Assembly: GCF_002795845.1 (NCBI RefSeq)
Contig: NZ_CP011797.1
Coordinates: 3,200,001-3,264,000 of the forward strand
DNA: 64,000 bases
Direction of reading: 5' to 3'
From: Reinekea forsetii
GTDB taxonomy: Bacteria > Pseudomonadota > Gammaproteobacteria > Pseudomonadales > Natronospirillaceae
A model generated the notes under the pieces. The model was given only the letters and a program-made list of their open reading frames with translations, had not been told where the DNA came from and searched no databases. Positions 17,894 to 45,919 of the stretch are shown in pieces. How positions within the stretch are numbered: position 1 is the first letter of the stretch; every line of letters begins with the position of its first letter. A program made the position numbers and the translations under genes.

Positions 17894-17939
17894 AAACCTC
17901 TAAAGCTATATTCGATAAATGAACCGGCTCCAACCACAC

Positions 17940-18140
17940 TCAAGACTCTATTAAAACTGTAAAATCAGCTTCTCGCCACTCTATGTCACTCAGACCAAAC
18001 CAGAAAATTCCTACCGAAACCGCATAAAAACTCATGGCCATCTTATCCCCCTCATTGTCGGAAACTTCCAGCCAGGTATGAACAAAGTTTTTCATTCCTA
18101 GTATTTCTTGATCTGTATAAATCGTAACTGAATATCCCAT
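17940..18140 (-). CDS. Orphan truncated copy of the RTX head domain
   Basis: 66 residues beginning [19 protein letters not shown] and [14 protein letters not shown], closely matching residues 1-40 of the 2130-residue RTX protein. It diverges after about residue 45 and stops well before the region carrying the NC motif (C110 in the full protein). It follows the upstream paralogous membrane protein with TAAATG, exactly as the full head follows its own partner, so [membrane protein + head] has been duplicated as a unit and this head has decayed. It may be non-functional or an inactive decoy that still retains H21. Confidence 0.75.
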   Translation of the reverse strand: MGYSVTIYTDQEILGMKNFVHTWLEVSDNEGDKMAMSFYAVSVGIFWFGLSDIEWREADFTVLIES

Positions 18141-18809
18141 TTAAAAAACCTCCTTTATTGTTTCAAATAAACCAAAAAAATAATAAATAAAGTAAATCCG
18201 TATTAATGTGAAAATATAAAAAAGCGCAGCAAATACCCCATAGATGAAATTACCTCTAAGATCGAGACCAAGAACCATATCGCCGCGATCCACAACAACC
18301 CGCATCTTATTGAAAAGTCCCTCTGACATTGCATCTGAATATATGACACCCGATCCCTTACACCTCTTCTTCTTCCATTCCCCAACTAAAATATGCTTTA
18401 TTCTTGTTCGATTTTTTTCCAATCTTTGAGACCGCATTGAGAACGTTTCATCTAGGCCATGACCAACATCACAAATCACCTGAGCCTGAATCCTATCCCC
18501 CTCAAAAACCCTATTACTCCTCATGTATGGCGAATATAAAACATCAATATCCCTCTCAGTCAGGCCATCAAACAGTAACGAAACCTCTCTATAGTTTTTC
18601 TTAGGAAGGTCAAATTCGAAGCCGAATTCTGATGGCGAAATAATGTACTTCTTATAATCAATATCCTTATATTCCTGTTCATTTATATTCGCGACCATCA
18701 CAACACAGTAGGGCGTGAACGCTATGACGCATAAAATAATAACGAATTTTAGTATGCTTTTGATTTTCTCCAGAGCAGGAGCCCATTTTCGGTTCATATT
18801 TTCTGCCAT
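18141..18809 (-). CDS. Two-TM membrane protein paired with the orphan head (copy 1)
   Basis: 222 residues, the same length and topology as its paralogue at 17225-17893: N-terminal helix (FVIILCVIAFTPYCVVMVANI), soluble middle, C-terminal hydrophobic segment rich in Phe/Tyr. The ATG at 18809 overlaps the adaptor stop as TGATG; a GTG one codon upstream is the alternative. The central domain differs most from the paralogue around residues 80-110 (MRSNRVFEGDRIQAQVICD versus MQVDGATEGERIKINILCD), as expected if each copy recognises a different partner. No family recognised; immunity function is inferred from context. Confidence 0.75.
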   Translation of the reverse strand: MAENMNRKWAPALEKIKSILKFVIILCVIAFTPYCVVMVANINEQEYKDIDYKKYIISPSEFGFEFDLPKKNYREVSLLFDGLTERDIDVLYSPYMRSNRVFEGDRIQAQVICDVGHGLDETFSMRSQRLEKNRTRIKHILVGEWKKKRCKGSGVIYSDAMSEGLFNKMRVVVDRGDMVLGLDLRGNFIYGVFAALFYIFTLIRIYFIYYFFGLFETIKEVF

Positions 18810-20191
18810 CACCTTTCCCTCAACGATTCCATACGCGTACGCATTAACGGCGACAAGAAAAACTCAATTAACCTTCGCTCACCGGTTTGAATTTCAGCCG
18901 TTACCGCCATACCCGGTTTAAATTCAACCGCCCGGGCATCCGCAAGCAGTGAACTCCTGTCCAGCCTCAACAGCATGCTGAACACCAGGCCGCGCTCCTC
19001 ATCAATTATTGCGTCATGCGAGATCGACAATATTTCTGCGTCAACCACGCCATATTTGGTGAAGGGTAGCGTGTGTATTTTGACTTCCGCGGCCATACCT
19101 TCCTCTATAAAACCAATGTCTGTATTGTCGATAAAAACCTCTACTTCAACGGCCTTGCCCTCGGGAATAACACTCATCAACAGTTCAGCATCTGTTACAA
19201 CGCCGCCCAAGGTATTGATGTTTATTTGCTGCACCACACCATCTACGGGTGAATAGAGTGTGAAGTAGCTCAGGCGTTGCTCCACCTTATGTTTTTCTTC
19301 AAGCAGGCTACTCAACTGCCTTTGCAGCTCCACAATCTCATCCAGGCGGCCAGACCGAACCTGTGCGGTTAGGGTCTCAATTTTCTGTTCTGCCTCGTCT
19401 TCACTCGCCGATAATTGCTGGCTGCGTTCTTGCTCGAGTTCTAAGGAGTAGGTAGCTGACAATAGGGCCTGCTGGGCGTTTAACATTTCAATTTGGGTTG
19501 TGCCGCCCGTTTCAAACAGCGCTTTAATACTGTTGTAGCGTTGCTGCTCCAGCGGCAGGCTATGCTGCAGGCTCTTCAGGGTAATGCGGTTCATTTGCTG
19601 TTCGGCATGGATGCGGGCCACGGCACTGTCCAGTTCGTTGACCGTCGCTCGGAATTCCCGCCAGTACCCTTCGAGCAGTTGGGCATCGAACTCCGTGCCC
19701 GGGTCGTTTGGGTATTCAACCGCGATAGCAGTGGGCAACTGTTTCGCCTCTGCCACTTGGGTAAGGGTAAAGTTCACGACCCGTCCATAGAAGCGCTCAC
19801 GCACTCGGAGGCTACGCTCTGTTGCATGTTGGTCATTGGTGATGCGATTGAGGTCTGCTTCTGCGCTCGCCCTGTCGAGTTCTACTAACGCCTGGCCCTT
19901 GCTGACCCTATCGCCGTTACGCACATAAATTTTTGACACCGTGCCCTTTTCAAAGGGTTGAATAAACTGCACACGCTGGGTTGGTAATATCTTGCCATCT
20001 GCACTGACCACTATATTAACGTTGCCGATATAGGCCCAAGCCAGAGCAAGAAATATAAGCGCAATCAGGCCGTAAGCGAGCCATCGCGCCAACGGGTTTG
20101 GTGGTGTGGCCTGAACCGATAAGGCCGCCGGCATGAATTCATACAGGTCGGTCGCGCCTGAGTTCGCTGGGTTCAGCAGTGCTGGCTTCAT
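18809..20191 (-). CDS. Type I secretion membrane-fusion adaptor (HlyD family)
   Basis: 460 residues. After a cytoplasmic tail of about 40 residues comes one membrane helix (WLAYGLIALIFLALAWAYIG), then the lipoyl half-motif VVSADGKILPTQRVQFIQPFEKGTVSKIYVRNGDRVSKGQALVELD, a long alpha-hairpin coiled coil (about 100-290), the second lipoyl half (SPVDGVVQQININTLGGVVTDAELLMSVIPEG) and a C-terminal beta domain. It bridges the inner-membrane ABC protein to a TolC-type channel, not encoded nearby. ATGA overlap with the ABC gene and TGATG with the next gene show one operon. Confidence 0.93.
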   Translation of the reverse strand: MKPALLNPANSGATDLYEFMPAALSVQATPPNPLARWLAYGLIALIFLALAWAYIGNVNIVVSADGKILPTQRVQFIQPFEKGTVSKIYVRNGDRVSKGQALVELDRASAEADLNRITNDQHATERSLRVRERFYGRVVNFTLTQVAEAKQLPTAIAVEYPNDPGTEFDAQLLEGYWREFRATVNELDSAVARIHAEQQMNRITLKSLQHSLPLEQQRYNSIKALFETGGTTQIEMLNAQQALLSATYSLELEQERSQQLSASEDEAEQKIETLTAQVRSGRLDEIVELQRQLSSLLEEKHKVEQRLSYFTLYSPVDGVVQQININTLGGVVTDAELLMSVIPEGKAVEVEVFIDNTDIGFIEEGMAAEVKIHTLPFTKYGVVDAEILSISHDAIIDEERGLVFSMLLRLDRSSLLADARAVEFKPGMAVTAEIQTGERRLIEFFLSPLMRTRMESLRER

Positions 20192-22419
20192 TCCGATGAC
20201 CCTCGGACCGACACTGTGGGCACTCTGTCGAGTGTGATCTTGCGCTTGCCAGAGGCCACAATGTGCGGTTTCTCGTCCATCGTATTAGTGAACGGGGCTT
20301 GGCGTTGATGGGCAAATAACTCAGAGAACCGGCCGCCGCTGCGAAGCAGGTCTCTGCTTGCGCCCATCTCCACAACCGAGCCCTTTTCGACCACCATAAT
20401 CTGGTTACAAAATGCGACAGCGGACAGCCTGTGTGCGATCACCAAAACGGTCCGGTTTTTACAGATGGCCTGCATATTCTCCTGTATCACCTTTTCAGAT
20501 TCATAATCCAGGGCACTGGTCGCTTCGTCGAAGATGAGGATCTTGGGGTTATTAATCAGCGCTCGAGCAATCGCAATGCGCTGCCGTTGCCCTCCCGACA
20601 GGTTCGTGCCCTGCTCCTCAATCAGGGTGTCGTAGCCATTGGGTAACTCGGCGATAAAGGAGTGAGCGCCCGATAACTTGGCAACGGCGATCACCCGATC
20701 CATTGAAATGCCTGGATTGACCAAGGCGATATTTTCTCGAATTGTGCGATTGAAGAGAAAACTGTCTTGCAGCACCACGCCTATTTGGCGCCGTAAGACA
20801 CTGGGATCGAGCGACGCTATATCGATACCGTCGACCGTTATGCGACCGGACTCAGGGATGTACAGCCGCTGAAGTAGCTTGGCGATGGTGCTCTTGCCTG
20901 AGCCAGAACTGCCCACAATGCCAATGGCCGTCCCGACTGCAACCGTAAAACTCACCCGGTTGAGTATTTTGCGGCCCTCAATGGCATACCGAAAATCAAT
21001 ATCCGTAAAGGTGACTTCGCCGTGAATATGCTCCACAGACGCCCGCGTGTTCTGGGCATTAAACTCTCTTGGCGCGTTTAGAATGTCACCGAGCCGCGCG
21101 ATCGATATGCCTGCTTGTTGGAAGTCCTGCCACAGCTGCACCAACTTTAAAACCGGCCCACTCACCCGGCCTGCGATCATATTCACCGCAATCAGCTGGC
21201 CAACGCTGATTTCGCCCCTTATGACCAGATGCGCGCCAAACCACACGATACCCAGGGTCATCAATTTATTAATTAGGCCGGATGCCTGGCTGGCGATATT
21301 AGACAGATTGCTGCTTTTAAAGGAGGCCGAGACATAGCTGGATAGGTTGTCTTCCAGTCGACGTTGCATTTGGGGTTCGGCGGCCAATGCCTTGACGGTT
21401 TCAATACCGCTAATGGATTCCGTTAAGAACGACGTATTGGCGGCACTGTATTTGAACTTCTCATTCAGGCGAGACCTGAGGAGGGGTGTTATGGCAATGG
21501 ACAACACGATATAGCAAGGAATGGTCGCCAGTATTACCCAGGTTAGGGTTGGGCTGTAGTACCACAGCACTGAAATAAAGATAAATACAAAAAACAGATC
21601 GATAATAAGGGTCAGCGCGGTGCCGGTAATAAAGTTGCGGATCGTATCCAATTCTTTTACCCGCGCCACATTCTGACCAATCTGCCTGGATTCGAAATAC
21701 GACAATGGCAGTGCCAGCAAATGGTTGTAGAGTCTTGCGCCGAGCTCGACATCGACTCGATTGGTTGTGTGGCTAAAGAGGTAATTTCGAAACCCGCCGA
21801 TAAACGCTTCGAAGAGGGCCACAATAAAAAACCCAACGGCGAGCACGTCTAGGGTAGAGAAGCCCCGATGCACAACAACCTTATCCATAACAACCTGAAA
21901 GAAGAATGGCGTGACCAGCGCAAAAAGTTGCAACACGAAGGATGCGACTAAGACTTCGGTAAATAATTTTCGGTATTTTACCAGGGAGGGCACGAACCAA
22001 GCTATATTGAATTGGCGCGTCATGGCTTCGGACAGACTGACACGTTTTGTTACAACCAGGAATTCACCGATTGCGCGCTGATTGAATTCATTCAGGCTAA
22101 TGATCTCTGGCGCTTTTTGCGATAGGTCGTGAATGAGTACGCTGTCAATTTTTAGGTCTTTGCTGCGCGCTATCTTCGCGACCACAAAATATTGTCCATC
22201 CTGCCCCTTAGCCATGCATGGCAAATTGACATTCTTGAATCTAGCCAAGTCGGTGCGAACAAACTTCGCCTTTAACGACAGATGCTCAGCGGCCTGGAGC
22301 AACTGAATATCGGAGAATAGCTCTCCCTCTACCCCATATAGATGCTGCACCTGCGCTGGGCTTGCGGGTAATTGATGGAAGTTAGCAATTGAAATTAACG
22401 CTAATAGGCCTGAATCCAT
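20188..22419 (-). CDS. Type I secretion ABC transporter (HlyB-like)
   Basis: 743 residues from the ATG at 22419 (AAGGA upstream; a TTG at 22449 is the alternative). Residues 1-130 are a C39-like domain without the catalytic Cys, the substrate-docking form found in RTX exporters. Next come six membrane helices (about 150-440) and the nucleotide-binding domain with Walker [11 protein letters not shown] loop, signature LSGGQRQR, Walker B ILIFDEATSALD and the H loop AHRLS. It exports the RTX protein encoded at the other end of the same operon, recognising its uncleaved C-terminus. First gene of the operon. Confidence 0.94.
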   Translation of the reverse strand: MDSGLLALISIANFHQLPASPAQVQHLYGVEGELFSDIQLLQAAEHLSLKAKFVRTDLARFKNVNLPCMAKGQDGQYFVVAKIARSKDLKIDSVLIHDLSQKAPEIISLNEFNQRAIGEFLVVTKRVSLSEAMTRQFNIAWFVPSLVKYRKLFTEVLVASFVLQLFALVTPFFFQVVMDKVVVHRGFSTLDVLAVGFFIVALFEAFIGGFRNYLFSHTTNRVDVELGARLYNHLLALPLSYFESRQIGQNVARVKELDTIRNFITGTALTLIIDLFFVFIFISVLWYYSPTLTWVILATIPCYIVLSIAITPLLRSRLNEKFKYSAANTSFLTESISGIETVKALAAEPQMQRRLEDNLSSYVSASFKSSNLSNIASQASGLINKLMTLGIVWFGAHLVIRGEISVGQLIAVNMIAGRVSGPVLKLVQLWQDFQQAGISIARLGDILNAPREFNAQNTRASVEHIHGEVTFTDIDFRYAIEGRKILNRVSFTVAVGTAIGIVGSSGSGKSTIAKLLQRLYIPESGRITVDGIDIASLDPSVLRRQIGVVLQDSFLFNRTIRENIALVNPGISMDRVIAVAKLSGAHSFIAELPNGYDTLIEEQGTNLSGGQRQRIAIARALINNPKILIFDEATSALDYESEKVIQENMQAICKNRTVLVIAHRLSAVAFCNQIMVVEKGSVVEMGASRDLLRSGGRFSELFAHQRQAPFTNTMDEKPHIVASGKRKITLDRVPTVSVRGSSE

Positions 22420-22761
22420 GGCAACCGTCGTCCTTAGAGCTCGTCGCAAATTACCTAAACGGTAGCAAAATACTGAACTTAAAGACTGCAGAACTATAAG
22501 ATTAATGCCAGATATAGTACTTTAAAATGTAACCAACACGCTGGGCTGAATCAAGTAAATTTTTCGTTCGAATTGAGAAGTTGTTCACATGAAATAATTA
22601 TTTTATTACTCTAAATGACCAATACAACTTAACGCTGCACAGGGGTGGGACGGGTAGCGCTGAGAACGGGGGTGTGCGATTAATACAGGCCAAGTAGAAC
22701 ATCCATATGGGAACCTTTACTGATATTTGGGCACCCTAAAAGGCATCCGAAACCGAATTAC
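22420..22761 (-). promoter_or_regulatory. Leader/promoter region of the type I secretion operon
   Basis: These 342 bases hold no gene. The part nearest the operon is A/T-rich (22480-22620) and should contain its promoter, although no clear -35/-10 pair stands out. The IS element begins at 22762, so any control region further upstream has been displaced by about 1.3 kb. Confidence 0.4.
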
Positions 22762-34918: not shown

Positions 34919-35335
34919 AATAACAGAACGGCCATCATCACCTTCTTCGATAGACCCATGTCTCCACATTTGGGCATCGCCGCGGTGGCGGTCATACTGC
35001 CGATTTTCGATGTATTCATCGCCCTCTGGCCGGTCAAAGGAGGGCCGTGAAGGCACCAAATGGCTGGGCGCAGCGCCAATTTTCGATTGCATATCGGAAT
35101 CCCACTTGTCCAGATATAGCTCCAAACCATACATCCAAAAGAAATCCATCCAAATATTTTGGCAGGGTGCTCCTTCAATTCTCGTTTAATAACATAAAAC
35201 ATAGGGAAAGTATTATTTAAATCCACTGCATATGGAATTCATAGGTGGGGCTTGAATTCTATATTTCATTCACATCAGGCAGATCCATAGAAGTAAATTA
35301 CCCATAAGGTTTGCAATAACGTTCAGGGATTATTA
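34919..35335. other. Gene-free stretch; start of a duplicated upstream block
   Basis: 417 bases without a convincing gene. From about 35150 the sequence (TTTTGGCAGGG-, CTCGTTTAAT) resembles the block beginning near 36265, and both blocks precede a copy of the adaptor gene. The duplicated unit therefore includes the control region. Earlier, 34959-35050 could encode a short hydrophobic peptide from an ATG, but it has no ribosome site. Confidence 0.4.
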
Positions 35336-35593
35336 ATGCCTGCGAATAGCACCAGGAAAAATCAAGGAGAATGCCATGGACTATATCGGGTACTTGCCAT
35401 TGTGAAACAGAACGACCAACTAATAGGTGATGAATTTTTTAGCCAACCGACAGCGTATTCGCTAATTACAGCAACAGTTATCGTATTTATTGTCGCCGCC
35501 ATTGTTTTATTCGTAGATGGGGGCTATGCATATGAAGACCACATACAGAGCTATTCGGTGCCAGATAATGAAGCAATAAGTATATACATCTAA
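35336..35593 (+). pseudogene. Truncated duplicate of the microcin adaptor N-terminus
   Basis: 85 codons from the ATG at 35336 match the first 87 or so residues of the adaptor at 36441: xQGECHGLYR/QEERHGLFR, KQNDQLIGDEF/KQQDRLLGDVL, a membrane helix (SLITATVIVFIVAAIVLFVDGGYA) and VQGFLVPDQG-like SYSVPDNEAIS. It ends where the lipoyl domain should begin. It could insert in the membrane but cannot form a channel bridge. It records a tandem duplication of the adaptor gene followed by loss of its 3' part. Confidence 0.75.
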
Positions 35594-35914
35594 ACCAATA
35601 TTAGTCTTGAAAAATACGAATGTAAATTATAGATATTTAAAAAAAATGTAGGTCTTAATAAATAACAACCAAGGCTGCATGCAGAGGTCATTCAGTCCTA
35701 GTTCGACCGGATAGATATTTAGCAAAGACATGATTCGGTGGCCCAGAAATTCGTATTGAAAGTATTGCAGTACCAACAGATCACCATGAAGGTGATAGAA
35801 GCGGAGCGCCCCCTGAGAATCCGGCAAGATGACCGAGGGCACTCCATACCAACACTCGAAAGGATCGATTGAGGTTCTTTGAGTTTAGCAACTAAACTTG
35901 GGAAAGGAAATATT
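35594..35914. other. Gene-free stretch between truncated adaptor and first precursor
   Basis: 321 bases. No gene is supported. About 35740-35870 reads openly on the plus strand (QKFVLKVLQYQQ, VIEAERPLRIRQDD...RID) without a start, perhaps the 3' remnant of a lost gene. The last 30 bases supply the ribosome site GGAAAGGA for the precursor. Confidence 0.3.
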
Positions 35915-36070
35915 ATGAATATCATAACCAGTCAAGATGAGAAGCTGACAACGATAGTGGGTGGCATTGCCGCAGGCGATGGCGGATGTGTTCGTCCAAT
36001 AATCATTAGAAAGGGGCGCCCCGTAAAACCTCCGTTTATCTTGCCAGTGCCAGGCCCGGTAATTTACTAA
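35915..36070 (+). CDS. Double-glycine microcin precursor A (proline-rich)
   Basis: 51 residues from the ATG at 35915, with GGAAAGGA upstream. The leader MNIITSQDEKLTTIVGG has Gly at -1/-2, Ile at -4 and Leu at -7, the pattern cut by C39 peptidases. The mature part begins IAAGDGGCVRP and continues IIIRKGRPVKPPFILPVPGPVIY: cationic, seven prolines, one Cys. Cutting after the second GG (before CVRP) is possible. The RP/KPP/PVPGP pattern resembles proline-rich antimicrobial peptides that bind ribosomes. No immunity gene is recognisable next to it. The leader matches three others in this locus. Confidence 0.75.
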   Translation: MNIITSQDEKLTTIVGGIAAGDGGCVRPIIIRKGRPVKPPFILPVPGPVIY

Positions 36071-36440
36071 TAAATATATCAGGTTAGAAGACAGTCGAGT
36101 TCGTTGTTTGTTGTGTGCTCGCCAGTTGAACATTAAGCACTTCAGAATTAAGACAACCTGCATAGGGTTCGTTTTCCCATAAATGAATGTAAAAATAATA
36201 CTTTGATATGGGTATTAATCCGTTCTTCACAAAACCGTCAACCTCAAAAATAGATCGAAGTATATTGGCAGGATTCCCCTTCCTTTCTCGTTTACTAGTA
36301 TAAGAGAACGAAAAATATATTTGAAACCTAATAGGTATCGACTTCAAAGGTTCAATTGACATTCTGGGCTATATTCATGGCAGTCAGGCCAATTGAACAA
36401 AAGTATCAGTACAGCATGAAATAGTATTCAAGGACGATTT
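36071..36440. other. Gene-free stretch with the second copy of the duplicated block
   Basis: 370 bases. From about 36255 (ATATTGGCAGGATTCC, CTCGTTTACT) it resembles 35150 onward, the control region of the truncated adaptor copy. Open frames on the minus strand here and in the first block share KRE-K-x-PA-I, which probably reflects the DNA duplication rather than a gene. AAGGACG before 36441 is the adaptor ribosome site. Confidence 0.4.
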
Positions 36441-37723
36441 ATGACCACAAATATGGCCGGGCCAACGCAAGAAGAACGCCATGGACTGTTTCGCAAACAG
36501 GCCGTTGAAAAGCAGCAAGACCGTTTACTGGGCGATGTCTTGGTTGTACCGCCGCTGTCCTATTTGCTAATTACCTTTGTCATCTTAATCTTCGTCGTTG
36601 CGGCCGGTCTATTGCTGTTACATGGCAGCTATGCGCGCAAAGAAACCGTGCAGGGTTTTTTGGTACCCGACCAGGGCGTGATAAAGGTCTATGCATCCAC
36701 TACCGGGATAGTACGCCAAGTGTTAGTGCAAGACCGAGCCATGGTAACCGAGGGGCAAGCGCTATTTATGATCAATGGTGATCGCATCCTCACCAGCGGT
36801 GAGCACCTAGAAACCGTGCTGCTCGATGAATACCAAAGCCAGCTACAGATCCTTGAAAGTCAACTCACTCGACTGCCATCCCTGTTCAGCAACAAACAGC
36901 TGGATTTGGAACAAACCATTGCCGCAACAGATCGCCCATCGTCCATATTCAAACCCAGCAAAAGCTACTAAGCCAACAGCTGGCCCTGGCCGAACGGCAA
37001 AAGGCCAACATAGACACCCTGAGCCGCCAGGGATTGGCCTCGGATGCAGACCTTGGCAGTGCCTCCGAGAAGTTACTCAGCCTACAGGCCCAATATCAGG
37101 AACTGGCGCGTAACCTTGACGCGCAGCGCGATCTCGTTAAATCGCTAGCCCTGCAGCAAGCCGGTTTGGGTTTCGAGGAACTCAATCGTCAGGGTGAACT
37201 GCAAAACAGCCTGTCTGGTCTGGCGCAAAGCATTGCCCAGCTACATGGCGAGCGCGCCTACATCGTCAAGGCTAACCGCGCCGGCATGGTGAGCAATATC
37301 CAAGTTAGCGAAGGGCAGGAAGTGCAAAGCAGTGTGCCGCTGCTCACCATTACCCCACAGGGTAGCGAGTTGGAAGCCGAGCTACTGGTGCCGGCCCGAG
37401 CCATTGGCTTTGTCGAAGTCGGCCAGACGGTAAAGATGCGCTATTCCGCCTTTACCTTCCAAAAATTTGGCCTATATAGCGCGACCATTACCGGAGTCTC
37501 ACAAACGGTATTGTTGCCCAGTGAGCTGAGCGGTGTGGCGATTAACGCGCAAGAGCCGATGTATCGCGTCACGGCCAGTTTGGAGCAGCAGACCGTCGAT
37601 GCCTATGGCAAAACGTTCCCGTTGAAGGAGGGCATCTCGTTGGAGGCTGATATCAAACTGGCTGAACGGAGTCTTTTGGAGTGGTTGTTTGAGCCGTTGT
37701 TTAGTTTGAGAGGAAGACTCTAA
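36441..37723 (+). pseudogene. Microcin export adaptor (HlyD/CvaA family), frameshifted
   Basis: The N-part (36441-36971) has a cytoplasmic tail, one helix (YLLITFVILIFVVAAGLLLLHGSYA), lipoyl half VQGFLVPDQGVIKVYASTTGIVRQVLVQDRAMVTEGQAL and the first hairpin helix, then leaves frame near 36930 and stops at 36971. The C-part (37034-37723, readable back to about 36940 as HIQTQQKLLSQQLALAERQ) has the second helix, lipoyl half SNIQVSEGQEVQSSVPLLTI and the C-terminal domain. One small indel in the coiled coil separates them. Together they make a normal adaptor of about 425 residues for the peptidase-ABC exporter. Either the exporter is crippled, or the base call is wrong. Confidence 0.8.
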
Positions 37724-37787
37724 ATAAATTAATAAGGCCTAGGCAGCCTCAAAATACTAAAAGCGGTGAATAAAATACTTAAACCAA

Positions 37788-37833
37788 ATTTGCTCATATG
37801 AGCAAATCATGTACGTACAGAGGTATGTACATG
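37788..37833. promoter_or_regulatory. Perfect 20-bp palindrome and second inverted repeat before the precursors
   Basis: ATTTGCTCATATGAGCAAAT (37788-37807) is a perfect 20-bp palindrome. It is followed by CATGTAC (37807-37813) facing GTACATG (37827-37833). Both lie in A/T-rich DNA about 100 bases upstream of the microcin precursor at 37909. The symmetry and size suit a dimeric repressor or activator operator; the binding protein is not identified. Confidence 0.55.
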
Positions 37834-37890
37834 TCACCCCCAACAACCACCGAGGAAATCAACAAGATGACCAGTGTTGTTGGTATTTAA
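37831..37890 (+). pseudogene. Possible decayed double-glycine leader
   Basis: A 19-codon frame after AGAGG reads MSPPTTTEEINKMTSVVGI and stops. Its end (EEINKMTSVVGI) resembles the leaders MNIITSQDEKLTTIVGGI and NEEMQDINGGV, with one Gly missing and nothing after. It could be a remnant precursor or a short regulatory peptide, or chance. Confidence 0.25.
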
Positions 37891-37908
37891 ACTTGAAAGG
37901 AAATTAAA

Positions 37909-38082
37909 ATGAATATATTAACCAATGAAGAAATGCAAGATATCAATGGTGGGGTTTGGGGTTTTGTAGCAAGAGGAGCCAGGTATGTTTATAAGGCCGC
38001 TAAGAAGGTCTTAACCTCCAAAAAAACTCTGGCTGCCGAGGCCGTATATGAAACGTCCAATACATTGTCACCCGATCAGTAG
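37909..38082 (+). CDS. Double-glycine microcin precursor B
   Basis: 57 residues, too short for a 60-residue cut-off. Leader MNILTNEEMQDINGG (Ile at -4, Met at -7). The mature part of 42 residues starts VWGFVARGARYVYKAAKKVL: aromatic and cationic, with amphipathic-helix spacing, then a polar tail. AAAGG precedes the ATG. The bases around the start (ACTTGAAAGGAAATTAAAATGAATAT) closely resemble those of precursor A, as expected of duplicated precursor cassettes. The small membrane ORF 55 bases downstream is the likely immunity gene. Confidence 0.75.
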   Translation: MNILTNEEMQDINGGVWGFVARGARYVYKAAKKVLTSKKTLAAEAVYETSNTLSPDQ

Positions 38083-38137
38083 TTTCAACTTAGTAATAAG
38101 TCTGAAATATTTAATCATTAATTGAGAAACTAATATT

Positions 38138-38314
38138 ATGAATGAAATGCTTTATCTTTTTATATGTATTATTGCTCTAATTATTTTAATATTTAATTTT
38201 AGTGATCTTGGAATTAGTAAGGCGACATTTATATTAATTTCTATCCACTTCTTATTGCCACGGATGGAGAGTGTTCTTGTGTTGATTAAAAACAAATTTA
38301 TATCTTCAAAATAG
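38138..38314 (+). CDS. Small two-TM protein, candidate microcin immunity
   Basis: 58 residues: hydrophobic helix 1 (MLYLFICIIALIILIFNF), short SDLGISK turn, helix 2 (ATFILISIHFLLP) and a basic tail (LIKNKFISSK). This size and layout are typical of immunity proteins for class II bacteriocins and microcins. It follows precursor B and precedes C and D. The ribosome site is weak (GAGAAAC). Very A/T-rich. No family can be assigned; the immunity role rests on position and topology. Confidence 0.5.
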   Translation: MNEMLYLFICIIALIILIFNFSDLGISKATFILISIHFLLPRMESVLVLIKNKFISSK

Positions 38315-38550
38315 ATGTCGGATATTTATTCAGATTCTATTTAAGTGCAAAAGCGTAAGTTGTTGATTAAACTATATAGCCTTACGGGTGCCTTTAAAGG
38401 TAAACAGTAGTTTTATGGGCCGGAGTAGGCTCGTTGAAGGGGCTTATACTAGCTTCCAGCTTTATCAAAAGTAACAATATATGCGATTATAATTTGTTAC
38501 AAATAAATTTTTATTTTATTATATTATATTAAAATTTTAAGGGGTTGAAT

Positions 38551-38742
38551 ATGAAAGAATTAAGTGTTGGTCAATGTAACCTTGTAAATGGCGGATGGAT
38601 TTCTGCACTTGTGAAATCAGTAAAAAAGGTGATCAAATACGTGGCGAAGTCCAATCAAAAAACCACAACTGTTAATATCACAGCCGCTTCTGCCGGAGCT
38701 GGAGCTGGCGTCGGAACTATAGTTGGCAGTAATGAAAATTAA
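38551..38742 (+). CDS. Double-glycine microcin precursor C
   Basis: 63 residues from ATG 38551, chosen over a TTG six bases upstream because AAGGGG sits 7 bases before it. Leader MKELSVGQCNLVNGG. The mature peptide (48 residues) has a cationic amphipathic segment (WISALVKSVKKVIKYVAKS), a Thr/Asn stretch and a Gly/Ala-rich end (AGAGAGVGTIVG) with GxxxG spacing. It may act with precursor D, 103 bases downstream, as a two-peptide pair; this is inferred from adjacency and GxxxG motifs. Confidence 0.75.
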   Translation: MKELSVGQCNLVNGGWISALVKSVKKVIKYVAKSNQKTTTVNITAASAGAGAGVGTIVGSNEN

Positions 38743-38845
38743 GAACTCTTACTAAATTAAACCCGCCATATTGCAAGTTTTAACTGTACTTTTATTATCT
38801 GCAACATGGCGCATTTTTTTAGTCAATAATCAAAAAGGACAATTT

Positions 38846-39004
38846 ATGAATACTTTAAGCAATGATCAAATGAATCAGGTTTCTGGTGGCGCACTGGTTA
38901 CTTTATTCAAGGCTGTTATAAAAGGCGCAGGATACGTAGGCACAGCAATTACAGTCTCCTATAACTCATATAAGGCTGCCAAAAAAAAGGCCTCAAGAAA
39001 ATAG
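38846..39004 (+). CDS. Double-glycine microcin precursor D
   Basis: 52 residues from ATG 38846 (AAAAAGGAC upstream). Leader MNTLSNDQMNQVSGG with Val at -4 and Met at -7. The mature part (37 residues) begins ALVTLFKAVIKGAGYVGTAIT and ends in a strongly basic KAAKKKASRK. No Cys, so no disulfide. Cationic tail plus hydrophobic helix fits a membrane-active peptide. Confidence 0.75.
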   Translation: MNTLSNDQMNQVSGGALVTLFKAVIKGAGYVGTAITVSYNSYKAAKKKASRK

Positions 39005-39082
39005 TAAACTGAAATCTTGAAGTAATTTGAAGTTATGCTGTTAATATTAGGTAAGATAGCTATATATTTTTTTAAGTATTAA

Positions 39083-39115
39083 AAAATTCCAAGCATTAGC
39101 TTGCTTGGGGTTTAT
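39083..39115 (+). terminator. Hairpin terminator after the precursor genes
   Basis: CCAAGC (39089-39094) and GCTTGG (39103-39108) pair, with an A run before and GGTTTATT after. It probably ends the precursor transcript 80 bases after precursor D, separating peptides from the protease/exporter genes. Confidence 0.55.
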
Positions 39116-39319
39116 TCCATTATCTACCCTTGGGTATCCTAAGGTTTATTTTCAGAGCCCAAACCACAGAGAATAGTATATTTTGAAGATACTGATATAA
39201 AGGAGAAATCGATCTGCACGATATATTGAGGGCAACTACAAATACTGAAAATCGATACATAGAAACGCTTTATAACCAATAAAGCTAACTTATCTTGAAA
39301 TTACATTGGAATTACCATT
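39116..39319. other. Intergenic region before the CPBP protease gene
   Basis: With the preceding 110 bases this makes 315 bases without an assigned gene. AAAGGAG near 39201 is followed by a frame of about 20 codons lacking an ATG. Nothing else is evident; a promoter for the protease-exporter pair is expected here. Confidence 0.3.
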
Positions 39320-40159
39320 ATGCAAATATCCAATATTTTGAAGTTTAATTTCTGGCACGCTATCGCATACTTTATAGTTTGCACTTTTTTTTCGGTCTTT
39401 TTGTTGGATTATTTTGTAGAGTCAGAGGCCAGTTTAGACGCTTTATTTGGATTGGTTTTCTATGGTTTGATACTCTTACTAGTAACAATAAAGTATAATA
39501 TTGTAGCTGAATTTTTTAAAATAAGAACAAAAATAAACGCTTACATCGATATTCTTGGGCTTACAGGAATTCTGATTACATCTAGCATTCTGATGGCTTT
39601 TTATATTTTATATATTTCCAAATATTTTAGTATTGACCTAATCGTCGGGCTATATTCAGATTTGGATATGTATCATCAAACAGATGGAAGCTACTTTTTA
39701 TGGCAGAATATTATTATTTTTCTATCTATTTCTATTCTTACACCAGTGGTAGAGGAGCTTTTTTTTAGGGGCCTACTAATAGACTTACTATATAGAAAAT
39801 TTACTAAATATAGTTCCGTCATTCTGAGTTCTATCGTGTTCGCAATATTGCATGTTGATTTATTAGGAGCACTAATATTTGGGATTATTTTAGGATTTAT
39901 ATATATTCGAACCGAGTCCTTAAGCATCCCAATATTCATTCACATCGCTAACAATACGATTGTATCTATTATTGCTGCTATTGATGAAATGGGAATATAT
40001 GATATTGAAAAGGAAATTAATCACCTATTTGCGGCCAACTCTTTAATCTTTTTACTGCTCACCTCGGTACTTCTAATTATTTCATATTTTTTATTATTAA
40101 AATCATATAAAAAATTTGTATCTATTTACTCAGTTGACACTGAGAAATCAAGAATATGA
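39320..40159 (+). CDS. CPBP-family intramembrane metalloprotease
   Basis: 279 residues with about eight hydrophobic helices. The three CPBP (Abi) motifs are present: EELFFR (E145, E146, R150), FAILH (H178) and HIANN (H208, N211/N212). In bacteriocin loci this family provides self-immunity or helps maturation; elsewhere it processes membrane substrates. It overlaps the peptidase-ABC gene by ATGA, so the two are made together. Its DNA is far more A/T-rich than that exporter gene, a mosaic origin. Immunity to one of the precursors upstream is the favoured role, by position. Confidence 0.85.
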   Translation: MQISNILKFNFWHAIAYFIVCTFFSVFLLDYFVESEASLDALFGLVFYGLILLLVTIKYNIVAEFFKIRTKINAYIDILGLTGILITSSILMAFYILYISKYFSIDLIVGLYSDLDMYHQTDGSYFLWQNIIIFLSISILTPVVEELFFRGLLIDLLYRKFTKYSSVILSSIVFAILHVDLLGALIFGIILGFIYIRTESLSIPIFIHIANNTIVSIIAAIDEMGIYDIEKEINHLFAANSLIFLLLTSVLLIISYFLLLKSYKKFVSIYSVDTEKSRI

Positions 40160-42225
40160 AAATACTTCTTCAAACAGAAATCGCCGAATGCGGCCTTGCC
40201 TGTGTCGGCATGGTCGCAGGCCACTACGGCTACGTTTCAGATCTCTCCATGTTGCGCAACCAATTTAAGATCTCATCGCAAGGCACCAACCTCAAGCAGC
40301 TGATGGATATAGCCGCCAAACTCGAATTGGCCGGGCGGGCACTGCAACTCGATTTGGAACACCTGTCGCAACTGCAGTTACCCTGTATTTTGCATTGGGA
40401 TATGAACCATTTCGTGGTGCTAAAGGCGGTCGGCAAAAATAAGGTCGTCCTATTGGATCCCGCTATCGGCGAGGTGACCTACAGCCACGACGAATTTGCC
40501 AAGCACTTTACCGGCATTGCCTTGGAACTCACCCCAACCGCCAAATTCGAGAAGAAAGAGGTGCGCCAAAGACTGAGCTTGTCCCATTTTTGGCAACGGA
40601 TATTTGGCCTAAAGCGCAACCTGATCACCATTATAGTGCTGTCGTTTTTACTGCAGATATTTGCTGTGGTCGCACCCTTTTACATGCAAACGGTGGTCGA
40701 TGACGTGTTATTGCGCCAGGACAGCAGTTTGCTACTGGTGCTGGCCCTGGGTTTTGGTTTGCTGATGCTGATACAAACCGCGACCAATACGCTGCGCGGT
40801 TTTATTATTTTGCACCTGTCGACCAAATTAAACTATCAGATGGCGGCCAATCTATTCCGGCACCTGATACGCCTACCGCTCGACTATTTCCAAAAACGCC
40901 ACATCGGCGATGTGGTGTCTCGCTTTGGGTCCCTGCAACAGGTGAAGGATCTGCTTACCACAGGCCTGGTCAGCTCTATTGTCGATGGTGTGATGGCCCT
41001 TATTACCCTTACCGCCATGTTTATCTATTCCGTTAAGGTGGCCTTTGTCGTGCTTTTTGTGGTCGCACTGTACACGCTGCTGCGCTTTGCGCTGTATCGG
41101 CCCTTTCGCAGGCTGTCCGAAGAAAGCATCGTGGCCCATGCCAAGGAGGATTCTAACTTTATGGAGACGGTACGGGCGATCCAAACGGTTAAGCTGTTCC
41201 AACGTGAGAACGACCGGCAGAATCTCTGGCAGAATCGATACACCGAGGCCTTGAATACCGATGTCTCGTTGGCCAAATGGGGTATTGGCTACCAGACCAT
41301 CAATCAACTGCTCTTTGGTATTGAAAACGTTATCGTAATCTATCTATTGGCCACGAGTGTTATGGGCAATCTGATGTCACTCGGCATGCTCTATGCCTTT
41401 ATGAGCTACAAAAACCAGTTCGTCGACCGCATGGACGGCCTGATTGATATGTTGATCGAATTCAAGATGATCGGCCTACACCTGGACCGCCTGGCCGACA
41501 TTACCTTTACCGACGCCGAAGATGTCGACCGCCATACGGCCAACCTACAACATCTGCCCGACATGATCGGCAAGCTGGAAGTGAAAAACCTAACCTTCCG
41601 CTATTCTGCAACCGACGATCCTATCTTCGAAAACATCAGCTTTTCCATTGCAGCCGGTCAGTCGGCCGCCATCGTCGGCCCGAGCGGTTGTGGCAAAACC
41701 ACCCTGTTGAAGGTCATGATGGGCTTGCTGAAGGCAGACAGCGGCCAGGTACTGATCGATGGCGTGGACATAAATAAGCGGGACGATTACCGCACCCAGA
41801 TCGCAGCGGTGATGCAGGACGACCAGCTCTTGTCGGGCTCGGTTGCAGAGAACATCGCCTGCTTTGATCCAAAATTGGATTTCGAGCGGATCGGCGCCTG
41901 CGCTGTGGCCGCTGCGGTGCACGAGGATATTCTCAAGTTTGGCATGCAGTACAACACCCTGGTCGGCGATATGGGCACCTCTCTTAGTGGCGGCCAGAAA
42001 CAGCGAGTCATCTTAGCGCGTGCCCTGTACCGCGATCCCAAGCTGTTGTTCCTCGACGAAGCGACCAGCCATTTGGACTTGGACAACGAGTCGATCGTTA
42101 ACGCGAATGTTAAACAGATGAATATTACCAGAGTGTTGGTGGCGCACCGGACGGAAACCGTTAAGAGTGCGGATGTGGTGATTGATTTGGGTAGGCTTAA
42201 CAGTGCAAAAGATGGTAGAGACTGA
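40156..42225 (+). CDS. Peptidase-containing ABC transporter (C39) for microcins
   Basis: 689 residues. The C39 domain is active: C12 in TEIAECGLACVGMVAGHYG, H85 in MNHFVVL, D101 in LLDPAIG. It would cut the double-glycine leaders of the peptides upstream during export. Six helices follow (about 155-430), then the nucleotide-binding domain with GPSGCGKTT, LSGGQKQR, FLDEATSHLD and AHRTE. It contrasts with the type I exporter at 20188, whose C39-like domain lacks the Cys. It needs an adaptor; the local one at 36441 is frameshifted. Confidence 0.95.
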   Translation: MKILLQTEIAECGLACVGMVAGHYGYVSDLSMLRNQFKISSQGTNLKQLMDIAAKLELAGRALQLDLEHLSQLQLPCILHWDMNHFVVLKAVGKNKVVLLDPAIGEVTYSHDEFAKHFTGIALELTPTAKFEKKEVRQRLSLSHFWQRIFGLKRNLITIIVLSFLLQIFAVVAPFYMQTVVDDVLLRQDSSLLLVLALGFGLLMLIQTATNTLRGFIILHLSTKLNYQMAANLFRHLIRLPLDYFQKRHIGDVVSRFGSLQQVKDLLTTGLVSSIVDGVMALITLTAMFIYSVKVAFVVLFVVALYTLLRFALYRPFRRLSEESIVAHAKEDSNFMETVRAIQTVKLFQRENDRQNLWQNRYTEALNTDVSLAKWGIGYQTINQLLFGIENVIVIYLLATSVMGNLMSLGMLYAFMSYKNQFVDRMDGLIDMLIEFKMIGLHLDRLADITFTDAEDVDRHTANLQHLPDMIGKLEVKNLTFRYSATDDPIFENISFSIAAGQSAAIVGPSGCGKTTLLKVMMGLLKADSGQVLIDGVDINKRDDYRTQIAAVMQDDQLLSGSVAENIACFDPKLDFERIGACAVAAAVHEDILKFGMQYNTLVGDMGTSLSGGQKQRVILARALYRDPKLLFLDEATSHLDLDNESIVNANVKQMNITRVLVAHRTETVKSADVVIDLGRLNSAKDGRD

Positions 42226-42744
42226 ATAGTTGGTGGGTGGTGATTGGGTCCGAAGTTGGTGCCTTTGCCAGAATTTAACCATGTCGATGAGAGTGGGCAC
42301 GCTGAATGATGTCACTTGCCCGGCTGAACAGAGCTAGACTAGCGTCGGTTTGGTCTCTAACTCCTTAACCATCCAGGCTTCACAACCTAGGCAAATACTC
42401 CGACCTATTTGTACCTGTTAGCTTCTAGTGATTAATGAACTTAAGGCGAAGATGGGTTTGATACCAAAGGAAAATATCAAATTGTTCAGTCTTTTAAAAT
42501 AGGGGGATAACCAACAGACTCAGCAAAAAATTATTTTCACTCAGATGGCAGTGATATAATTTTAATATTTATCAGTATATTTCTATATCGACAAATTTTT
42601 ATCAGCCATTGTCACATTGACATGTTAAAGGATAATCTGCAGTTCAAGGGGTGGATATACAAAAAACCCATTAAATCAGTCAATTTCAATCTTAAAGAAT
42701 ATATTTGCGAAACGGTAATATATGCAAAAGGGAAATTAAATAAT
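42226..42744. other. Gene-free region before the ECF sigma factor
   Basis: 519 bases. No gene supported. From about 42470 it becomes A/T-rich (TGATATAATTTTAATATTTATCAG at 42550 contains a TATAAT), so the sigma-factor promoter is probably there. The frame of the sigma gene stays open back to 42622 but no family similarity is seen in that extension. Confidence 0.35.
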
Positions 42745-43308
42745 ATGAATTTTGCATTAGATAATCTAAAACTAATGGGCGAAACTAGACAGCCTCATAT
42801 AGACTACCTAATAGTTGAGGCCTATGAACGCCTACATGGTTTAGCGAAATCCGCCCTAGGATACTCCCGCAACAGCACAGCAATCCAAGCCACTGAACTG
42901 GTAAACGAACTCTATTTGTATTTGCGCCAAAGAGAACATCTCAATTTTAACGATAGTGCTCATTTCTTTGCAACAGTCTCTTTGAAGCTAAGGCATATAT
43001 TAAACGACAAATACAAAAGCAGGTGCGCTCAGAAACGAGACTTTGGCATACGGGTTCACGAGTTCGATCTAGAAGGTATTGCATGTACTGAAAAGACGAT
43101 GCTTGAAGAAATCGTTATGAAAAATCTTATTGAACAGCTAGAGCAACACGATGAGGTTTCGGCGCGAGTGACCGAATTGTTGATATTTTGGGAGTTTAGC
43201 TACCCGGAAGTGGCGAACTTACTTGGTATTAGCGAAAGGACTGCGCATCGAAAATGGCAATGGGCCATTGCTTGGTTTAAGACAGAGATTGGCCACCTAG
43301 GGAGATAG
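42745..43308 (+). CDS. ECF sigma factor of the kinase-linked group
   Basis: 187 residues from ATG 42745 (AAGGG ten bases upstream). An upstream ATG at 42622 would add 41 residues not typical of the family. Region 2 is AYERLHGLAKSALGY...IQATELVNELYLYLRQ, region 4 is LLIFWEFSYPEVANLLGISERTAHRKWQWAIAWFK. The pattern fits the TIGR02999-type ECF factors that sit before Ser/Thr kinases with TPR repeats, exactly the gene order here. Being next to the microcin exporter, it might control that locus, but no cognate promoter motif was found. Confidence 0.88.
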   Translation: MNFALDNLKLMGETRQPHIDYLIVEAYERLHGLAKSALGYSRNSTAIQATELVNELYLYLRQREHLNFNDSAHFFATVSLKLRHILNDKYKSRCAQKRDFGIRVHEFDLEGIACTEKTMLEEIVMKNLIEQLEQHDEVSARVTELLIFWEFSYPEVANLLGISERTAHRKWQWAIAWFKTEIGHLGR

Positions 43309-43312
43309 GGTC

Positions 43313-43486
43313 ATGGAAGATGAAGGTCGGATCCTAAGAGCCCAGGAGATATTTCTCAGTTTAATAGATACCCCACGGGATGAAATTGAACGTTATTTGA
43401 AGATTCAATGCGGTGATGACCTGGTACTAACGGACTATTGTCGGCACCTAATCTTAAACAATATTCGCGATACAAGTACCGTTTAA
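43313..43486 (+). pseudogene. Ser/Thr kinase gene, N-terminal fragment before in-frame stop
   Basis: 57 codons, MEDEGRILRAQEIFLSLIDTPRDEIERYLKIQCGDD..., match the helical domain that opens kinases of this group (x-RAxEIFxxxLDxPxxERxxxLxxxCGDD). The frame ends in TAA at 43484 and continues directly, in the same frame, into the kinase domain. If CAA (Gln) is restored, the reading is continuous. ATG four bases after the sigma factor stop. Confidence 0.75.
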
Positions 43487-43489
43487 CTT

Positions 43490-44782
43490 TTGTATGGCAA
43501 GGAGAAGATTGCACCAATTGAAAGTGGCAAAGTTGGTGATACTTTAGGCTCTTACTACATCCGCGAAAAAATAGGTCAGGGAGGAATGGCTGAAGTCTAT
43601 TTAGCTAACCGATCGGATGGAGTTCATGGTGCCGACGTAGCATTAAAGATTATTCACTGCACCGGAAATCAGGATAGACTAATAACGCGTTTTCACAGCG
43701 AAAGGAATATCCTCGCCAATCTAAAACATCCAAATATCGCCCAATTATTGGACGGAGGTACCACAGAACAGGGTCTTCCTTACTTCGTTATGGAATACAT
43801 TGCAGGCGAACCCATCGACAAATATTGCCGCTCCCACCAACTATCTTTCGATGAAATATTGGCGATATTTATCAAGGTCTGTACCGCCATCGAATTTGCG
43901 CATCAAAATTTAGTTATCCACCGAGACATTAAGCCTGCAAATATTGTCGTCAATGCCAAAGGCGAGCCTATGCTATTGGACTTTGGCATCGCTAAAGTTT
44001 TACAGCCTACACCGCCAGACAATGACACTTCGACTATGTTGGCGCTCACAACTGATTATGCAAGCCCTGAGCAAATTTTAGGCGCTAATCTTACAACAGC
44101 GACAGATGTCTATTCTTTGGGAATTCTGTTATATGAACTACTTTGCGGTGTCCGACCACCACGACCTCAATTTAGAGTTTCAAATTCCGCCCTAAATTCA
44201 GTTGATTCAGGCGATAACCTAGCACCGAGTAAGTTTCTCGAAATAATACTAAAAGATGGAATTCCTTCAAGACTTGACACTAATACTTTGCATGAGCATA
44301 GGCGTAAATTAAAAGGAGATATAGATTCAATCCTAGTCAAAGCTCTTGAAAATAGTCCCGAAAATAGGTTTGTATCTGTTCAGGATTTTTCCAGAGATAT
44401 TGATCGCCATTTAAGGAACTTACCCGTATCAGCCAACAACAATACGTTTATATATCGCACGAGTCGCTTCATACGGCGCAATAGACTTACCATATTACTA
44501 TCTGTCATTGCTAGCACCTTGTTTTTCTCAGGTATCGGCATCCAACAGTACCGTGTTGTGTCTGAACGTGACATCGCTATTCAACAGAGAGATAAACAAC
44601 AAATCACCAAGGACTTCTTGTTAAGTCTATTTGAGTCCTCGCACCCAGAGGAATTTACCGGCGAACAATTAACTGCCAAGGACATTATTGATCGAGGCTT
44701 GGCAAAAATTGAGCACGAGTTCGACTCCGAGCCAGCATTAAAAGCAGAAATAATGACCACTATGGGGGTAGACTATCGATAA
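43490..44782 (+). pseudogene. Ser/Thr protein kinase domain (middle fragment)
   Basis: 430 codons in frame with the fragments on both sides. Hanks-type kinase: glycine loop IGQGGMAEVYLA, Lys in VALKII, HRDIKPANIVV catalytic loop, DFGIAK, and APE-like YASPEQ. A membrane helix follows (LTILLSVIASTLFFSGIGIQQY), then a region leading to TPRs. The only starts are TTG 43490 or later ones, with no ribosome site. All catalytic residues are intact. A second in-frame TAA at 44780 cuts it from the TPR part. Confidence 0.8.
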
Positions 44783-45919
44783 CTCAACGCAACCGATGTC
44801 GCCTCTACTCTTCTAAATGATGCTCTAGAATTGCGGCGCACCCTGTTTCCAGAGATCAGCAAAGAGGTCGGTGAGTCCTTGTTAGAGCTAGGAATATTAG
44901 AGTATAGACGATCGAATGCAAAGGATGCGCAAATATATCTTGAACAATCTATCCTAATCTACCAAGCCCTTGATGTTGAATATACCGAAAAACTCGCGGA
45001 CGGATACCATTTGCTAGGGTATTCGCTAAGTATTCTAGGTCAGACAGAAGATGCATTGACCTCATTTGAAACGGCGAAAGTAATTCGCATTGAATATTTC
45101 GGCTCCCAACATTCAAAGATTGCCGATTCCATAAGTGCTATCGGAAGTGTGTTCAGAAAGAATCAGGATTATCAACGCAGTTTAGATTTTCAACTTGAGG
45201 CTTTTGAAATACGACAAAAATCCTTACCCCCAAGCCACCCACATTTGGCCCGAAGTTACCACTCGGTTGGTCTGGACTACTTTTCTTTAGGTGATCTGGT
45301 GAAAGCAAGGGACTATTTAGAAAAAGGCTTAGATATTTGGAAAAACGTCCATGGAGATGGGCACGAACTTTTAGGCGAATTTTATTTTCCTCTCAGCCAT
45401 ATTGATTATTATAATGGAAAATACGAAGAAGCTTTAGATAAGTTAAGTATAGCGAGAGAATTAAACCTCAAAAATGATGGCACTGAAGGTGTTAAGATTA
45501 ACAGTCTGACTGGATTGATATATGAGGCCACGGGTGATCTAGAGCAGGGTTTGGTATACAAAGAAAAAGCTCTGGAACTCAGTCTAGAATATTATGGATC
45601 AATTCATGCACAAACGGCGAGAGAATATAATAATGTAGCGATCATCTACTCTAAATTAGGGCGCTACGATGACGCCATTTCATCCTTGACCGAGGCAATC
45701 AGCGTTAATATTAATTTATTCGGCGAATTGAACCCCAGAGTTGCCAATAATTATGATAGCTTTGGTGAAATATACTTAGACAAAGGTGACTTTGAGTTAG
45801 CATTACAGTATTACGCCAAAGCAAGGGCAGACTTTACCGCACTGTTTGGTGAAGATCACCCCGGTGTCAAGACTGCAGACAAGGGTATCGCTAAGGCACG
45901 GGAACAGTTGGATATTTAG
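44783..45919 (+). pseudogene. TPR domain of the Ser/Thr kinase (C-terminal fragment)
   Basis: Continues in the kinase frame right after TAA 44780-44782 (LNATDVASTLLNDALELRRTLFPE...). It holds about eight tetratricopeptide repeats of the 42-residue kind (ADGYHLLGYSLSILGQTEDALTSFETAKVIR; AREYNNVAIIYSKLGRYDDAISSLTEAISV). No ATG with a ribosome site near its start. As an isolated product it would be a soluble scaffold; in the intact protein it is the periplasmic or partner-binding part after the membrane helix. Confidence 0.75.

Follow-up and report, generated by a model that had tools for sequence, protein, structure and literature searches.

What does a cluster of four small genes beside a peptide exporter send out of the cell, and what controls it? 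We address this question for positions 35336-42225 of a window, our term for the whole 64,000-nucleotide stretch of DNA analysed (G000:C1:3200001-3264000), from the Reinekea forsetii genome, a single contig of 3,660,060 bases that is 99.99% complete. Judged by its anatomy, the locus is of the class II microcin/bacteriocin export type, from which we infer an antibacterial activity, and we consider it reasonably probable that it combines such export with exchangeable cargo. The cargo is new and the kind of export system already known; real novelty lies in a conserved leader element ahead of the first of the cargo genes. We observed directly the genes and their leaders, the motif residues, the defects of the adaptors, the duplicated pieces and the conserved element. 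All features described for the locus (35142-42225) lie on the plus strand.

Exporter and cargo genes

The last gene of the locus encodes a C39 peptidase-ATP-binding cassette (ABC) exporter of 689 residues (40156-42225), which matches PF03412 (E 8.1e-37), PF00664 and PF00005. It carries Q6, C12, H85, D101, a Walker A motif and LSGGQ, which we take to be its catalytic and ATPase residues, and its alignment with the solved structures of HlyB and of the bacteriocin transporter 4ry2 covers nearly the whole length. Directly upstream lies a gene for a CPBP (Rce1-like) membrane protease of 279 residues (39320-40159; PF02517, E 1.6e-20) with the motif residues E145, E146, R149, H178, H208 and N212. The end of this gene overlaps the start of the exporter by 4 bases, suggesting that both belong to one operon. 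The initial annotation had named both proteins, together with four small open reading frames (ORFs) bearing double-glycine leaders, and all of these are borne out; the ORFs lie at 35915-36070, 37909-38082, 38551-38742 and 38846-39004. Outer-membrane channel (PF02321) matches occur in two frames of the genome, outside the locus. The GC content is 30-36% in the cargo stretch and about 50-57% in the adaptor and exporter around it, and the gaps in five other Reinekea loci have 34-40%. In 35000-42700, promoter-like sites (22 versus 18.5) and terminator-like sites (11 versus 7.7) were about as numerous as in shuffled sequence, and we made no use of them.

The available text of PMC9746304 describes class II microcin export by a peptidase-containing ABC transporter (PCAT), a membrane fusion protein and TolC, with double-glycine peptides as cargo, and names a Cys/His/Asp triad for PCAT exporters; PMC10233263 agrees on the components. 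Because our locus follows this standard layout, and because relatives of its exporter occur in 560 stretches of the genome collection, the proposal of a previously undescribed system was too strong; its other half, a multi-peptide locus for bacteriocin-type export, is the reading we favour, and it agrees with a single exporter serving several cargoes. Eighty relatives were kept, mainly from marine Gammaproteobacteria, and the comparison set comprised 94 fetched loci (L numbers), with tblastn-type comparisons cut at E<=0.05. CPBP-like genes stand in or beside nine of the 94 (E<1e-5), two of the nine being a duplicate in genome G006, and PF02517 was confirmed in L105 and L107. The duplicate consists of equal-scoring locus copies, L107 and L108, near both ends of one 3.5-Mb contig (G006:C1). 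It is probably an assembly overlap, an unclosed circular contig overlapping itself, and was counted once.

Each of the four precursors is preceded by a purine-rich stretch before its start. The predicted mature parts of peptides 1-4 comprise 34, 42, 48 and 37 residues with net charges of +4, +4, +5 and +8 and pI values of 9.8-10.4, in agreement with the cationic character first noted for them. The accompanying claim that the mature regions are unrelated gives way for peptides 2 and 4, whose alignment was matched by only 3 of 1000 shuffles. This is one of five pairs under 30 of 1000 shuffles among 26 tested, uncorrected for the number of tests; the others are peptide 4 with L105 8686 (1), peptide 3 with L107 8179 (3), peptide 2 with L107 8179 (10) and peptide 3 with L110 7699 (22). 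Peptide 4 also has a relative in genome G011 (E 0.005), 4.4 kb upstream of the exporter there.

Peptide 2 (57-residue precursor, 37909-38082) and peptide 3 (63 residues, 38551-38742) have cationic mature parts with amphipathic stretches near the mature N-terminus (helical moments 0.69 and 0.68, each reached by 0 of 500 shuffles), and membrane action is therefore the best guess for both. These features fit, short of proof, membrane-active bacteriocins. Peptide 4 (52 residues, 38846-39004) passes the curated model TIGR01847 (16.6 bits, cut-off 15.7), a leader model of 15 positions. Peptide 2 stays below the cut-off of TIGR01847 (13.7 bits) and falls just short of that of TIGR03949 (20.3 bits, cut-off 21.5), and peptides 1 and 3 pass no curated cut-off in Pfam or NCBIfam. 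Between peptides 2 and 3 lies an ORF for a hydrophobic protein of 58 residues (38138-38314; grand average of hydropathy 1.31), a candidate immunity protein by its place and hydrophobicity.

A strict leader pattern finds two ORFs in the whole window, both in this locus. We extended the count to 86 exporter loci, which are not independent, many being from Pseudoalteromonas and Rheinheimera. An adaptor match is present in 81 of them; loci without a match of at least 45% identity to the exporter were skipped, and seven (L003, L004, L006, L007, L008, L090 and L108) were dropped beforehand as other ABC proteins or a duplicate. Leader ORFs with a ribosome-site pattern numbered 78 on the exporter's strand in the nearby stretches, which reach from 4.5 kb before the exporter to 2.5 kb beyond it and leave out the exporter and adaptor themselves; 2 were antisense in these stretches and 9 lay in the far parts. 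The corresponding densities per 10 kb are 1.69, 0.043 and 0.071, a 24- to 39-fold enrichment, and 46 of the 86 loci have no leader ORF under the strict rules. In two Pseudoalteromonas loci (L025:11110-11622 and L026:11115-11628), four near-identical small ORFs with double-glycine-type leaders (MKELNAIQMNAINGAGG...) stand in tandem downstream of the exporter.

The conserved leader element

Two copies of a conserved element precede cargo genes in the window. The type 1 leader element (35790-35914, hairpin core 35797-35847) stands before peptide 1 and scores 61.9 bits with our covariance model R1; the type 2 element (37834-37885) stands before peptide 2 and scores 53.0 bits, with a fold z-score of -2.95 for 37840-37892. 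The element is 52 bases long, and we collected 14 copies (12 distinct) from the window, L089, L106, L107, L109 and L110, two per cargo unit. All of them contain the invariant AAGATGAC between complementary arms. In 13 of the 14, a small cargo-type ORF lies before the next element, the exception being the first element of L109, and the leaders of these 13 ORFs end in GG or GA in 11 cases, in AA in one (L110) and in GS in one (L106).

The non-coding type 1 leader, which is conserved in L110, L106 (twice), L107 and L089, is better conserved than the gene behind it. Between the window and L110, 111 of 137 leader bases agree versus 73 of 141 in the aligned codons; the values are 131/135 versus 108/150 for L106a and L107, and 102/130 versus 80/141 for L106a and L089. 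That gene encodes the peptide 1 precursor (51 residues, 35915-36070), with a cut expected after GG17 and a proline-containing, cationic mature part; its leader is imperfect, having S at position -12 where a hydrophobic residue is expected. Five other copies of the peptide 1 family (L089, L106 twice, L107 and L110) occur in three Reinekea genomes. They are ORFs of 47-50 residues with basic residues and a C-terminus that contains proline, placed 3' of an adaptor or adaptor tail, and their leaders are GG-like, with GA in four and AA in L110. A profile of all six copies gave seven matches at E<=1.2e-17 in 22 genomes of the family, as it must by construction, and the next at 0.02. When each copy was left out in turn, L106a and L107 were recovered at E<=1.5e-10, L089 at 0.0085 and L110 at 0.24 (rank 8), and the window peptide was missed (E 5.3, rank 29 of 16,163 ORFs). 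Because the profile fails to recover it, we assign the window peptide to the family by its place, its leader element and one tblastn hit, namely L110, its sole match at E<=0.05 in the 94 loci, at the corresponding place (E 0.048). Two weak PDB matches (best E 0.21) were returned for the family profile.

The element is tightly confined. In the 22 family genomes the covariance model gave 16 strong matches (44.6-74.1 bits), 14 of them by construction and 2 from the G006 duplicate, all at exporter loci of the four element-bearing Reinekea genomes (our genome, G000, with G004 and G005 of the same genus, and G006). The next-best score was 24.5 bits in the family genomes and 17.9 bits in our own. Under stricter filters, 293 genomes of the order yielded matches at E<=5e-4 in G000 and G004 alone; G005 and G006, absent from the matches in that set, were presumably not drawn. 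A search of 53 sources, among them 43 of the 77 loci L012-L088, gave 14 matches, every one in a Reinekea locus. Rfam 15 gave no match at E<=5 in window positions 35000-39400, and at E<=1 in L089, L106 and L107 its sole matches were two tRNAs and, at another place in L107, one hit below threshold. Presence of the element in phages was considered and set aside: 22 viral contigs contain the loop pattern, and none exceeds 28.4 bits versus the 44.6-74.1 bits of the Reinekea copies. Window positions 35780-36070 had no plasmid match, and we found no open-licence PubMed Central title treating these peptides or the element; one paper there mentions Reinekea and bacteriocin, each a single time. The element looks undescribed, and its conservation and exclusive placement are firm. 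The four peptides also look undescribed, within a general kind of locus that is already known.

The element may be a cis-regulatory RNA, and its proposed structure is a plausible hypothesis. The arms can form an 11-bp stem in which 78.0% of cells are paired, versus 63.9% in shuffles (0 of 500), with a covariation score of 0.503 versus 0.289 (0 of 500) that drops to 0.242 or less when the stem is slid by 1-3 columns; this stem was chosen by eye and then tested on the same sequences, a choice that favours it somewhat. Neither the 7 pairs with two-sided changes, a number reached by 242 of 500 shuffles, nor the 19 further pair types, reached by 56, stand out. Within classes, each with six distinct sequences, the covariation score was reached by 55 of 500 shuffles for type 1 and by 338 for type 2, weak values that place the bulk of the signal between the two subclasses. 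With RNAalifold, no consensus structure emerged for the element. Single-sequence folds of nine copies gave z-scores from -3.48 to -0.10, clearly better than shuffles in some copies only. Type 1 copies have two further predicted helices, the second with 93.8% of cells paired and five of eight pairs invariant, the third with 95.0% paired, a score reached by 81 of 500 shuffles, and an end near the ribosome site; because they share a strand, they would be mutually exclusive.

On this basis we offer, tentatively and at somewhat less than even confidence, the hypothesis that the elements form a new class of structured cis-regulatory RNA for cargo genes. Such an RNA would have a variable stem and a fixed loop (UGAG...AAGAUGAC), followed in type 1 by two exclusive helices by the ribosome site, and would act as a switch for production of the first two peptides; the cargo would change with each duplication and the control element would be kept. 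A short upstream ORF may start at the AUG of the loop. We rejected the idea of a coding remnant or upstream ORF in the ..EEIAKMTG.. frame, open in several copies, since the loop is shorter in the window type 1 element and in the two L110 copies than in the others.

Function of the locus and rival readings

Under the class II microcin/bacteriocin reading, small precursors with double-glycine leaders would be produced and the C39 domain of the exporter would cut them after GG. The exporter would then move the mature peptides out via an adaptor and a TolC-like channel; for peptides 2 and 3, perhaps also 4, the most likely target would be the membranes of related bacteria. The 58-residue hydrophobic protein, the CPBP protease or both would probably protect the producer, and expression of the genes for peptides 1 and 2, the first of the cargo, is probably under the control of the leader element. 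Several observations weigh against this picture. No Pfam bacteriocin family is over its cut-off for any of the four peptides; amphipathicity is not beyond shuffles for peptide 1 (284 of 500) or peptide 4 (105 of 500); none of the 94 fetched loci holds a relative of the 58-residue protein at E<=0.05; and with neither adaptor copy intact, the locus may be in decay.

The lack of amphipathicity in peptides 1 and 4, and an immunity role that is only a candidate, would suit secreted peptides for signalling, biofilm or other non-toxic purposes, which would use the same export route with a cargo that does not kill. Double-glycine peptides with roles in communication or biofilms are known from the available parts of PMC10233263 and PMC4997328. 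The cationic amphipathic stretches of peptides 2 and 3 speak against a harmless cargo, as do its fast change and its exchange between loci. We regard this alternative as unlikely. Fast change and exchange of cargo are more usual for weapons than for signals.

A second alternative, that the locus is decaying, with its adaptor lost and its small ORFs relics under no selection, turns on the adaptor (HlyD) genes. Both had been annotated simply as adaptor genes, with the cargo between them and the exporter, a description that does not hold when they are compared with an intact paralogue of 433 residues at 5488-6789 of L089, a second locus of the same genome (G000:C1:1254000-1272000). The first copy (35336-35593) is a truncated N-terminal part corresponding to residues 20-90 of the paralogue (44% identity). 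The second (36441-37723) is frameshifted: residues 1-169 match at 78% and residues 169-433 at 87% in a different frame, with the break near residue 169 and a PF13437 match in the second part. High genome completeness mildly favours a real frameshift over a sequencing error. The upstream region and start of the truncated copy (35142-35417) duplicate positions 36248-36522 (blastn, 65% over 277 columns, E 1e-11). The related upstream regions, together with the fragment and the frameshift, point to tandem duplication of an adaptor unit whose copies are now both defective. Incomplete copies are present in other loci too: of the adaptor in L105, of the exporter in L106 and L089, and of both, each split, in L110. 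In L106:6690-10500 the order is exporter fragment (residues 1-181), adaptor-like C-terminal tail, second cargo unit, a layout that is likely a trace of tandem duplication and then deletion. On the class II microcin/bacteriocin reading, cargo units were duplicated in tandem with pieces of adaptor and exporter and then eroded to fragments.

Two defective adaptor copies, a nearby kinase gene with two in-frame stops and the split adaptor and exporter of L110 would all be expected of decay, against which stand the four peptide ORFs, the CPBP gene and the 689-residue exporter, all open and with their motifs in place, and the intact adaptor elsewhere in the genome. We consider decay decidedly unlikely. 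As the adaptor of the locus is broken, export would need another, and the simplest source is the second locus, whose intact adaptor probably serves in trans. That locus also holds leader peptides of its own, an exporter 73% identical to that at 40156-42225 and a truncated second exporter copy; in place of the CPBP gene it has a 488-residue protein (L089:7637-9103) without a Pfam match at E<=0.01.

Least probable of all, in our view, is a role of the leader elements in cargo exchange, as recombination sites of folded single-stranded DNA instead of RNA regulators: they do sit at cargo unit boundaries, in loci with repeated duplication and deletion, and their arms vary yet tend to stay complementary, as in attC sites, where arms vary while complementarity stays, but behind the last cargo gene the model detects no element, it is the loop that stays invariant, and most copies have a ribosome site a short way downstream.

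Beyond the exporter, an ECF sigma factor gene (42622-43308) adjoins a serine/threonine kinase-TPR gene (43313-45919), in which one frame is open but for two in-frame TAA codons (43484-43486 and 44780-44782). We rejected this pair as local regulators, since none of the 94 fetched loci matches the sigma factor at E<=0.05. The window also holds a second type I secretion set on the minus strand (10832-22449), with a C39-like ABC exporter (20191-22449), an adaptor (18809-20191) and a 2130-residue ORF (10832-17224), as well as an insertion-sequence type integrase (PF00665; 22812-23630, minus strand).

If the class II microcin/bacteriocin reading is true, a single marine genus repeatedly exchanges its bacteriocin-type cargo while the 5' leader stays fixed and the exporter is shared. 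New cargo can then be found by searching for the leader instead of the peptide, which changes fast, and there is a new RNA control element to test. The peptides are candidate marine antibacterials of narrow spectrum, and with the adaptor defective, export in trans through a paralogous system can be tested directly.

Comparison with known systems

Peptide 1 resembles animal proline-rich peptides such as oncocin and apidaecin in being cationic with prolines towards the C-terminus, and differs from them in origin, as the sources described in the available part of PMC5960728 are arthropods and mammals. We set aside, on sequence grounds, its classification as a proline-rich antimicrobial peptide: 229 of 1000 shuffles reach its best score and 217 its summed score, and the likeness is compositional. 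For the L110 and L106a copies, the summed score was reached by 30 and 19 of 1000 shuffles. No match to SbmA (PF05992) was found in any of the 22 family genomes, a result that neither supports nor excludes the proline-rich reading.

Accessory proteins of the MceF/McmM type, likened here by description only, share with the CPBP protein the character of multi-span membrane proteins in a microcin-type cluster, and MceF is presumably a CPBP family member. MceF is reported to regulate microcin E492 immunity negatively in the accessible text of PMC6795089, and that of PMC6071977 merely lists mceF constructs. With Gram-positive class II bacteriocins the locus shares the leader type, peptide 4 passing TIGR01847 and peptide 2 coming near TIGR03949; it differs in that no mature-peptide family exceeds its cut-off and in its Gram-negative host with an adaptor.

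The closest likeness is to class II microcins of the microcin V type, with which the locus shares double-glycine leaders, a C39-ABC exporter with its motif residues, an adjoining adaptor gene and a small hydrophobic ORF beside a cargo gene. A Gly/Ser-rich C-terminal region for siderophore attachment, a class IIb feature in the available part of PMC10233263, was not seen on reading the four mature sequences. The locus departs from class II microcins in its host outside the Enterobacterales, its four cargo ORFs, its two defective local adaptors and its extra conserved leader element.

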